NCBI GenBank assembly: GCA_022452145.1
Contig: JAKURY010000011.1
Location: 1 to 64,000 of the forward strand
DNA: 64,000 nucleotides
DNA from: Acidimicrobiales bacterium
GTDB lineage: Bacteria > Actinomycetota > Acidimicrobiia > Acidimicrobiales > MedAcidi-G1
Reading direction: 5' to 3'
The notes under the pieces were generated by a model. That model was not told where the DNA came from. It did not search any database and saw only the letters and a program-made list of their open reading frames with translations. The position numbers were made by a program, and so were the translations under genes. Of the stretch, positions 38,374 through 41,732 are shown in pieces (within the stretch, counting starts at the first letter, position 1; each line of letters begins with the position of its first letter).

Positions 38374-39294
38374 ATGAAAGAGATCGATACCCCCGCCACC
38401 AGCGACCTCCCGTCCATCCAGGGGCTGACGACTTTTGCCATCGTGGCCAGGCACCACAGCTTCTCCAGTGCCGCCGACGAGCTCGAGGTGGGGCAGTCGG
38501 CGATCAGCCATGCCATCCGACAGTTGGAGAGGTGGTTCGGATGCGCCCTATTCGAGAGGGACCACCGCGGGATCAGCCTCACCGAGGCGGGCCGGATCCT
38601 GGCCGACGGCGTCGGAGCCGGCCTAACCCGTGTACACCAGGCCGTCCGCGACGTCCAGCACCTGCACGACGGAGCCACCGAGGTGGTGACCATCTCGGTC
38701 TCCACGGCGACGGCCAGCGGCTGGCTCATGCCACTCCTGGCACGGTTCAAGGCGGCCCACTCCGAGATCGACGTGCGCTGTGTCACCACCGACTCCGACC
38801 GGAACTTCGACACCGGCACGGTTGATCTGTTCATCCCGGTCGGCCGGGCCCGATGGCCGGGCTGCCAGCGGTGGGCCCTGATGGATGAGACCGTCTATCC
38901 GGTCTGCAGCCCCAAGTACGCCGACTCGATCGGCAAGCGTCCCTGGAGCCTCGCTGTCCTGATGGGAGCGGAGCTGCTGACCCTGCAGGAACGCCACCGG
39001 TCGCGCATGCGCTGGTCGGAGTGGTTCCGGGCCGTAGGCATTGGCGTCCCCGAGGGAATGGGGGAGGAGATCACAAACGACTACACCGTCCTGCTGCACG
39101 CCGCCATGGAGGGCCAGGGGGTGGGCCTCGGCTGGCACCACCTGGTGGACGACATGGTGGTACGGGGGATGCTCGTCCGACCGGTACTCGAGTCCGTGAC
39201 CACCGACGAGCCGATGTGGTTGAACGCCCCCGCCGGACGGACGCTGACCTCGGCTACCGAGGCCCTCCGGGACTGGCTTGTCGCCCACGCCTGA
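38374..39294 (+). CDS. LysR-family transcriptional regulator (GcvA-like)
   Basis: 306 residues, normal LysR size. N-terminal winged helix (about 14-73): LTTFAIVARHHSFSSAADEL, QSAISHAIRQLERWFGCALF and GISLTEAGRIL. The effector domain (about 100-300) resembles the GcvA/AmpR group, with VDLFIPVGRARWPG and HAAMEGQGVGLGWHHL. It is divergent from the Rieske-sox operon across 89 bases holding two palindromes, so it is the probable regulator of betaine/sarcosine use, with a betaine, sarcosine or glycine as the likely effector. The effector identity is inference. Confidence 0.92.
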   Translation: MKEIDTPATSDLPSIQGLTTFAIVARHHSFSSAADELEVGQSAISHAIRQLERWFGCALFERDHRGISLTEAGRILADGVGAGLTRVHQAVRDVQHLHDGATEVVTISVSTATASGWLMPLLARFKAAHSEIDVRCVTTDSDRNFDTGTVDLFIPVGRARWPGCQRWALMDETVYPVCSPKYADSIGKRPWSLAVLMGAELLTLQERHRSRMRWSEWFRAVGIGVPEGMGEEITNDYTVLLHAAMEGQGVGLGWHHLVDDMVVRGMLVRPVLESVTTDEPMWLNAPAGRTLTSATEALRDWLVAHA

Positions 39295-39359
39295 GTGCCC
39301 GGGCGTGGAGCCCCGGGCCGTATCCGTACCCCGTCGGCCGAGCAGCCTAGGGTGGGTCG

Positions 39360-39983
39360 ATGCCCGAGCTCCATGTCGTCGACCACCCGTTGGTCGCCCA
39401 CAAGCTGACCCAGATGCGCCGGGACACCACCTCCAGCGAGCGGTTTCGACGGCTCCTTACCGAGACCAGCCTGCTGCTGACCTACGAGGTGACCCGGGAG
39501 CTGGCGCTGCGCGACGTGCGCATAACGACGCCGTTGACCCAGACCGACCAGCCGGAGCTGGTCGCCGAGCCTGTGGTGATCTCGATCCTGAGGGCCGGCA
39601 ACGGCCTGTTGGACGGTGTTCTGCAGGTCCTCCCGTCGGCCCGGGTTGGCCACGTGGGCCTCTACCGTGACCATGAGACCCTTGAGGCGGTCGAGTACTA
39701 CTGCAAGTTCCCGCCGCTGGAGGGCCGGATGGCCATTGTGGTGGACCCCATGCTGGCCACCGGCAACTCGGCCATCGCTGCCCTCGACCGGGTGATGGCC
39801 GGAAACCCCTCGGCAATCCGCTTCCTCTGCCTGCTGGCGGCCCCGGAGGGCATCGCCGCCCTCCACGACGCCCATCCGGACGTGGCCATCTGGACCGCAG
39901 CGGTCGACGAATGCCTGAACGAGGTGGGATACATCGTCCCGGGCCTCGGAGACGCCGGCGACCGGATCTTCGGGACGACCTGA
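39360..39983 (+). CDS. upp: Uracil phosphoribosyltransferase
   Basis: 207 residues, standard Upp length. Starts [20 protein letters not shown], with [18 protein letters not shown] (71-88) and the PRPP-binding loop [18 protein letters not shown] (125-142); the uracil-binding end has [18 protein letters not shown]. It salvages uracil to UMP with PRPP in the cytoplasm. Ends one base before the first codon of the deacetylase frame, so the two may share a transcript, though their functions are unrelated. Confidence 0.96.
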
Positions 39984-39984
39984 C

Positions 39985-41013
39985 ATCCGGCACCGCCTCC
40001 GGTCCCTCGTCCTGCTGCTGGCGGTAGCACTCCTGGCCATACCCGCCACCGGCCACGCTGTCCCCGCATCAGCAGCAGGTGTGGGCACCCCCACAGACAC
40101 CAGCCTCCCGGAACCCGTCGGCCGGGATCCTGGGGTCGTCTACCTCACGTTCGACGACGGACCCGACCAGATGCTGACACCGCTTCTCCTGGACCTCCTG
40201 GACCGGCACGGGGCCCGTGCCTCCTTCTTCCCCCTGGGTCGCAACCTGGAACCCCGCTGGGGGGAGGAGGAGGTCCAGGACCTCCTGAGCCGCGGGCACA
40301 CGGTCGGCAACCATTCCTGGAACCACCGGCGGATGGCCGACATGCATCCGTGGGCCGTGGCCGCGGACCTGGACAGCACATCGAGCCTGGTCGAGTATTT
40401 GGGAGGCTTCCGCCCGAGCTGCTTCCGGGCCCCCTACGGCAACCGAAACGAGGTCGTGGATGCCGTGGCCGGAAGCCTGGGGATGGTCCATGTCGGTTGG
40501 ACGGCGGACCCCCAGGAGTGGCGGGACCCATGGGTACCGGTGGCGTTGGCCTACCTGGCCAACGAGCGCCACGACGGCTCGGTGGTCCTCCTCCACGACC
40601 GCAAGTGGTTGGCCCTGCACATCGTGGCCGAGGTCCTGCCGGCCTTCATTGCCGACGGCTGGCGGTTCGAGGCCCTGCCGGCCTGCCGGCCCGCCGCCGA
40701 ACGTGAGGCCCGGATCGCCACCCGTGGACCCGGCGACGTCCCCGTTGGCCTCGTGGAACGGGTCTGGCGATCCGGGGGGGTGGTGCACATCAGTGGATGG
40801 GCGTTCGACGCCGACGCCCCGGACGGCGGACTGGAGTTGGTCGTGGCCGGGGGCCCCGTCCCTACCGTGCTCGGAGCGACGACCACAGACCATGACTTCC
40901 ACATCATGGTCGGGGACCATGATCCCGGTGGACCGATCTGCCTCTGGGCCCGCAACGCCGGTCGCTCCCGCCATGACGCCTCGCTGGGCTGCCACCTGCC
41001 GGAGCTACCCTGA
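39985..41013 (+). CDS. Secreted polysaccharide deacetylase with C-terminal beta-sandwich
   Basis: 342 residues if translation starts at ATC 39985. That frame codes a clear signal peptide, RHRLRSLVLLLAVALLAIP then an AHA-like cleavage region (ATGHAVPASA), yet it has no ATG, GTG or TTG upstream of GTG 40081, which would delete the peptide. The NodB domain has TFDDGP (55-60), the zinc pair in HSWNH (110-114), RAPYG (148-152) and LLHD (202-205), so deacetylase residues are complete. A C-terminal domain with VHISGWAFDADAPDGG follows (about 255-340), seen in other actinobacterial wall enzymes. It probably removes acetyl groups from peptidoglycan or another N-acetylated glycan outside the membrane. 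The start is uncertain. Confidence 0.82.
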   Translation: MRHRLRSLVLLLAVALLAIPATGHAVPASAAGVGTPTDTSLPEPVGRDPGVVYLTFDDGPDQMLTPLLLDLLDRHGARASFFPLGRNLEPRWGEEEVQDLLSRGHTVGNHSWNHRRMADMHPWAVAADLDSTSSLVEYLGGFRPSCFRAPYGNRNEVVDAVAGSLGMVHVGWTADPQEWRDPWVPVALAYLANERHDGSVVLLHDRKWLALHIVAEVLPAFIADGWRFEALPACRPAAEREARIATRGPGDVPVGLVERVWRSGGVVHISGWAFDADAPDGGLELVVAGGPVPTVLGATTTDHDFHIMVGDHDPGGPICLWARNAGRSRHDASLGCHLPELP

Positions 41014-41057
41014 CCGGAACGGGGTTCGGCGGCGCCGCCTCCCTACGCTCTGGAACC

Positions 41058-41732
41058 ATGCGCGAGTTCCCGAACGCACCGGATCCGGTCGAGGCCTCGT
41101 CCCTGGCGGCCGTACAACGACGGGTGGCGCGCGGTCTGGGCCTCCTGGCGACGCTCGATGCGGGTCCGAGGCCCGAGGTGCCAGACGAGCCGGTGATCTT
41201 CGCCGGCAACCATCGCAGCATGGCGGACCTGTTCATGGCCGCCGCTTCCTTCAGCTCATGGGGTTGGCCGATCCGCCCCCTCGTGGCCGGCTCCTACTTC
41301 GACAGGCCAGGTATCGGTGGCCTGCTTCATCGGCTTCGTTGCATACCGGTCCACGGGACGGAGGCCCTGGACATCGCCACCGAGGTGATGGCCGATGGCT
41401 GGTCGGTGGCCATCATGCCCGAGGGTCGGGTGGTGCCGGAGGCCCAATGGGCGGCCACCGGCGTCGGTACCGCCCGCCCGGGAATCGGTCGCCTGGCCCT
41501 GACCACAGGTCGTCCGGTGGTCGCAGTCGGCGCGAGTGGTACCGAGCGTCTCTGGCCACGGGGCCGGAACCTCCCCCACATCAGACCGTGGCGGCGTTTC
41601 CCTCTGGCGCTGCGGTGCGAGGTGCTGGGCGTCATGGAGGCCGAGCAGCCCAGCTTCGCCCTCCAGGAGATCATGGCCGCCATCGCCAGGTGCCTGGCGG
41701 TCTCGGATCGGGTGACCGGGCGAATCACCTGA
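41058..41732 (+). CDS. PlsC-like 1-acylglycerol-3-phosphate acyltransferase family protein
   Basis: 224 residues. The HxxxxD active-site motif is NHRSMAD with His52 and Asp57; the glycerol-phosphate motif is MPEGRVVP (120-127); a third block reads TTGRPVVAVGASG. The segment between (SYFDRPGIGGLLHRLRCIPV) matches the usual membrane-proximal region. No strong membrane helix. It would acylate lysophosphatidic acid or a related acceptor from acyl-CoA or acyl-ACP, but polyketide or glycolipid acyltransferases share these motifs. It follows the deacetylase by 44 bases on the same strand. Confidence 0.82.
   Translation: MREFPNAPDPVEASSLAAVQRRVARGLGLLATLDAGPRPEVPDEPVIFAGNHRSMADLFMAAASFSSWGWPIRPLVAGSYFDRPGIGGLLHRLRCIPVHGTEALDIATEVMADGWSVAIMPEGRVVPEAQWAATGVGTARPGIGRLALTTGRPVVAVGASGTERLWPRGRNLPHIRPWRRFPLALRCEVLGVMEAEQPSFALQEIMAAIARCLAVSDRVTGRIT

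Follow-up and report, generated by a model that had tools for sequence, protein, structure and literature searches.

The polysaccharide deacetylase gene that follows upp in the window, by which we mean the whole stretch of 64,000 nucleotides analysed here, from an actinobacterial genome of probably marine origin, is likely translated from the AUC codon at 39985, a reading to which comparison of sequences leads us to assign a probability of roughly 0.7. This codon (39985–39987) is located one base past the TGA stop of upp (39981–39983), and the deacetylase reading frame is +1 relative to that of upp (Table 1). By the same reading, the start codon is probably AUA in two sister species, and the AUC is probably reached by ribosomes that finish upp.

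Start region of the deacetylase gene

The open deacetylase frame spans 39919 to a stop whose last base is 41013, and scanning it from 39919 placed its earliest ATG, GTG or TTG at GTG 40081. This bore out the initial annotation, which had reported no such codon between a stop at 39916 and GTG 40081; its signal peptide, described as encoded from an ATC just past the upp stop, was likewise found, with a gap of one base. A start-free run of this length was not rare by itself, and the unusual property of the deacetylase was that homology and a signal peptide extend upstream of every standard start. In a survey of 56 ORFs of the window with homologues in stretches from 20 relatives (some of these ORFs probably antisense), the deacetylase was the only one in which an ATH codon ahead of the first standard start aligned with the standard start of an orthologue.

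Table 1. Coordinates of the features at the upp–deacetylase junction (window numbering).
Feature	Position	Strand	Evidence or remark
upp, uracil phosphoribosyltransferase gene, 5' of the deacetylase gene	39360..39983	+	TIGR01091 (E 5.9e-77), NF001097 (E 1.8e-81), PF14681
Polysaccharide deacetylase gene, including stop	39985..41013	+	PF01522
ATC, proposed deacetylase start codon	39985..39987	+	ATA in G004 and G009, ATG in G008
GTG, earliest standard start of the frame; product would lack the signal peptide	40081..40083	+	Frame scan
CTG, codon 11, rival start inside the hydrophobic core	40015..40017	+	ATG in G004 and G009, GTG in G008
Putative signal peptide	39985..40074	+	Cleavage after ASA placed by eye
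GGGA, weak Shine-Dalgarno-like, 9 bases 5' of ATC; no better than random	39972..39975	+	
GCG where 19/24 same-frame orthologues have GTG; putative lost older start within upp	39958..39960	+	Gly200 GGC, not GGT

The deacetylase matched PF01522 with an E value of 1.2e-28 (100 bits against a cut-off of 23.1), with the catalytic domain at approximately 40126–40488. None of the eight NCBIfam models listed reached its cut-off, so the protein is given no subfamily name. The sequence contained TFDDGP, NHSxxH, RAPYG and LLHD, which we take to be the catalytic motifs of the enzyme, and in six orthologues the FDDGP, NH...H, RAPYG and LLHD columns were invariant or almost so. Translation from ATC 39985 gave IRHRLRSLVLLLAVALLAIPATGHAVPASA, in which three arginines are followed by a strongly hydrophobic stretch with a best 11-residue hydropathy mean of 3.39 (Kyte-Doolittle). 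By this pattern of arginines and hydrophobic core, the N-terminus is a predicted signal peptide.

No Shine-Dalgarno sequence above random level was detected at the ATC when duplex energies were compared with those of random 25-mers of the window: the duplex 5' of the ATC reached −4.0 kcal/mol vs. a median of −5.5 kcal/mol. The anti-Shine-Dalgarno used was a general sequence, because a 16S rRNA search found none in G000 (matches were obtained in two of eight genomes). Nor did any of three GTG starts tested in relatives have a Shine-Dalgarno that exceeded random level. The structure of the RNA at the junction did not go beyond that of shuffled sequences (z −0.65 to −0.97), and none of the inverted repeats in 39900–41100 formed a local hairpin over the start codon. 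Viral contigs yielded seven pattern matches, none of them a relative. An ORF of 339 amino acids runs antisense to upp and the junction (window 39081–40100, minus strand), and frames homologous to it are also open in relatives; it most likely arises as a side effect of coding sequence with high G+C.

The deacetylase start in orthologues and sister species

A protein search of 61 genomes gave deacetylase matches in 44, from which the 27 best loci (L001–L027, at least 43% identity) were taken as orthologues and L028–L030 left out. The deacetylase adjoined upp in 26 of the 27; the remaining locus, L003 of G009, was cut by a contig edge, and the start region of G009 was found on another contig (L046). 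For the comparison of upp, L065, L069 and L071, which come from named genomes, were added, bringing the set to 30 loci. The deacetylase frame stood as in the window relative to upp in 24 of these, while the other six orthologues (L012, L015, L022, L024, L025 and L027) were in a different frame and all had a standard start shortly past the upp stop. With six orthologues in another frame, the upp–deacetylase junction is one that has been rearranged more than once.

Among the 24 same-frame orthologues, 19 had a GTG nine codons upstream of the column of the window's ATC. This GTG lies 26 bases before the end of upp, where it is made by a GGT codon of Gly200. GGT accounted for 42 of the 258 other glycine codons in these 19 upp genes (binomial P 2e-11 against this background, overstated since the genomes are related), and it was found at Gly200 in only one of the six other-frame orthologues, that of G002 (Fisher P 0.009 for 19/24 vs. 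1/6, overstated for the same reason). In several of the 19 carriers an ATG is also present two codons before the GTG, which is then not necessarily the sole start of the gene in every case. The five same-frame orthologues without the GTG inside upp were that of G028, which has another GTG just past the upp stop, and four with GCG in its place, namely those of the window genome, G004, G008 and G009. We thus regard the GTG inside upp as the apparent older start of the deacetylase, lost in the clade of the window genome. A standard start at another position, which the initial annotation had named as evidence against an ATC start, is therefore present in 19 of 24 relatives, but this genome no longer has that codon.

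The window genome, G004, G008 and G009 formed one clade with ultrafast bootstrap support of 99% in the protein tree and 100% in the DNA tree. The order within the clade was weaker, the grouping of G004 with G009 receiving 92% and 61%, respectively. The initial annotation had proposed comparing relatives at the 39985 codon; one base past the upp stop, the window's ATC is matched by ATG in G008 and by ATA in G004 and G009. The tree requires at least two changes of the third base, and ATG-first and ATA-first histories are not told apart. Further standard codons occur upstream, inside upp, in G008 (an additional ATG) and in G004 (a TTG). Within the clade, a complete lack of standard starts ahead of the hydrophobic core is confined to the window genome and G009, and in G009, as in the window, none occurs between the in-frame stop and the ATA. 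Counted from the ATN codon, two to three arginines precede the hydrophobic core in each of the four members. Values of dN/dS were 0.14–0.19 in the six within-clade pairs (NG86, 291 codons behind the signal peptide), a range that indicates purifying selection on the gene. ATA makes up 14 of the 67 Ile codons in the deacetylase genes of the clade and is not rare there, so the codon at the start position could also be an ordinary Ile codon.

Non-standard initiation and alternative starts

Initiation at such codons in this order could be followed through infC, which was matched in 58 of the 61 genomes and read at 36 loci. The conserved infC start position was occupied by ATA in 32 loci, the window genome included, and by ATC in four. 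In 26 of the 36, again including the window genome, the infC frame was without any standard start, and in the other ten the nearest standard codon lay 20–48 codons upstream in a longer open frame. Both AUA and AUC are thus evidently used as starts in this order. The infC gene of the window genome has a GGAG upstream and a Shine-Dalgarno duplex of −7.5 kcal/mol.

At the infC loci (L135–L141 and L166–L194), a mini-ORF of 7–8 codons was observed before infC in the family of the window genome. Its stop overlaps or abuts the infC ATA in 24 of the 25 loci of this family; in the window genome it reads VTHRSDDR from a GTG start, and the GGAG of infC is contained within it. The same loose rule was satisfied by 6 of 11 loci of other families and by 22% of upstream sequences after shuffling.

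Initiation at the deacetylase AUC would proceed by the initiator tRNA reading the codon as fMet through its first two base pairs. Ribosomes ending upp at UGA would meet the AUC one base downstream and restart there, and with this spacing a Shine-Dalgarno sequence would not be needed; we infer this coupling to upp from the geometry and the missing Shine-Dalgarno. Such initiation would be weak and held down by IF3, resulting in a low level of the exported enzyme. A broader proposal, in which the end of an upstream ORF licenses AUH initiation in the family of the window genome (the deacetylase past upp, infC at the mini-ORF stop), appears rather doubtful; under it, selection would hold the A and U of the start codon at such junctions while the third base drifts, and IF3 would control the deacetylase, as a secreted cell-wall enzyme, along with infC.

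Some evidence speaks against the AUC start. The deacetylase has no Shine-Dalgarno, in contrast to infC here (GGAG) and to the Staphylococcus cases (extended), and G004 and G008 have the upstream TTG and ATG inside upp. A strong Shine-Dalgarno is, however, a frequent trait of genes with AUH starts and not a strict requirement. Additionally, G+C by codon position in 39988–40080 (0.87, 0.58 and 0.71) is unlike that in the rest of the gene (0.75, 0.50 and 0.86). If instead the start were being lost, any translation of the gene would begin at GTG 40081 and omit the signal peptide, or secretion of the enzyme would have decayed recently. We consider this improbable: no standard start of the frame precedes GTG 40081 and a recent loss would leave dN/dS unchanged, but in the ORF survey no orthologue has a standard start at that column, the first shared standard column being 84, inside the catalytic domain. 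The catalytic stretches are also intact, and since G009 is without a standard start ahead of the core as well, loss would have to be under way in two lineages. Translation from codon 11, inside the hydrophobic core, would draw on the standard codons found there in three of the four clade members, and CTG, the codon in the window, can weakly start translation. This start is nonetheless quite improbable, as it would still be non-standard in the window, would remove every arginine ahead of the core and would lower the hydrophobic means to 1.73–1.75 in the three sisters (codon 12 of the window gives 2.10). ATG, GTG and CTG interchange as ordinary hydrophobic codons too, and the codons between the ATN and codon 11 look translated, with G or C at 36 of 37 third positions across the four clade members.

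A sequencing or assembly error at base 39987, hiding a true standard start, would agree with the ATG of G008 and with the draft state of the window genome (46 contigs). It was dropped as the main explanation and is very improbable, because G004 and G009, which are separate assemblies, have ATA at this codon and the gene appears to be under purifying selection. Between the two readings offered by the initial annotation, a true non-standard start or a start lost or misread, the former is now favoured by the ATA, ATA and ATG of the sisters; loss applies to the older GTG inside upp, and a misread base is not needed. Hardly credible is a +1 ribosome shift where upp ends (ACC UGA C) that would produce an Upp–deacetylase fusion. 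The deacetylase frame is indeed +1 relative to upp, and UGAC is similar to the stop at the prfB shift site, but no slippery codon or stimulator was found by eye at the upp end, a signal peptide buried within a fusion makes little sense, and 19 of the 24 orthologues in the same frame begin at a GTG instead. The efficiency of the favoured AUC start is unlikely to be high, since IF3 disfavours weak third-base pairs in vitro according to the excerpted text of PMC10158994.

Known non-standard starts and implications

AUH and other non-standard starts are already known as a kind. Streptomyces infC starts with ATC and that of E. coli with ATT, and Streptomyces sigR has a GTC start repressed by IF3 (PMC5472188, as excerpted). 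Like the proposed deacetylase start, that of infC is AUH, both in this genome and elsewhere in the order, but infC encodes the factor controlling such starts and has GGAG upstream here. As described in the excerpt of PMC5472188, sigR resembles the deacetylase as an actinobacterial gene with a non-standard start missed by annotators; it differs in that its codon is GTC rather than AUH, that it was bench-tested, and that sigR leads its gene pair while the odd start of the deacetylase is on the second gene.

AUH starts outside infC, as proposed for the deacetylase, have been reported for Staphylococcus aureus ccpN (AUA), cvfC1 (AUU) and citZ (AUA), with AUA and AUU reporters reaching approximately 10% of AUG, and ccpN up to 30% in rich medium (PMC13009471, excerpted part). 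An extended Shine-Dalgarno is described there for infC, cvfC1 and ccpN; the deacetylase differs from the Staphylococcus cases, as far as they are covered in that excerpt, in having no Shine-Dalgarno and a third base that varies between sister species. Together with sigR, these reporters provide published support, within the excerpted texts, for weak but real initiation at such codons. In an E. coli O104:H4 isolate, a natural ATG-to-ATA change at the rpoS start lowered expression without abolishing it (PMC12864459, as excerpted); this is likewise a third-base change of a start codon, but, by that excerpt, in a single isolate and not maintained between species. The titles and abstract openings searched named no deacetylase with an AUH start. 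As far as this search shows, three aspects are new: the gene, the position of its proposed start next to a stop codon without a Shine-Dalgarno, and the alternation of ATC, ATA and ATG among sister species.

Gene finders restricted to ATG, GTG and TTG would truncate the deacetylase and hide its predicted export. With GTG inside upp in relatives and ATG, ATA and ATC past upp in the clade, these species constitute a natural series that shows how a start codon can shift and become weaker from one species to another. Should the AUC prove functional, the deacetylase would join infC and sigR as a gene sensitive to IF3 in Actinobacteria.
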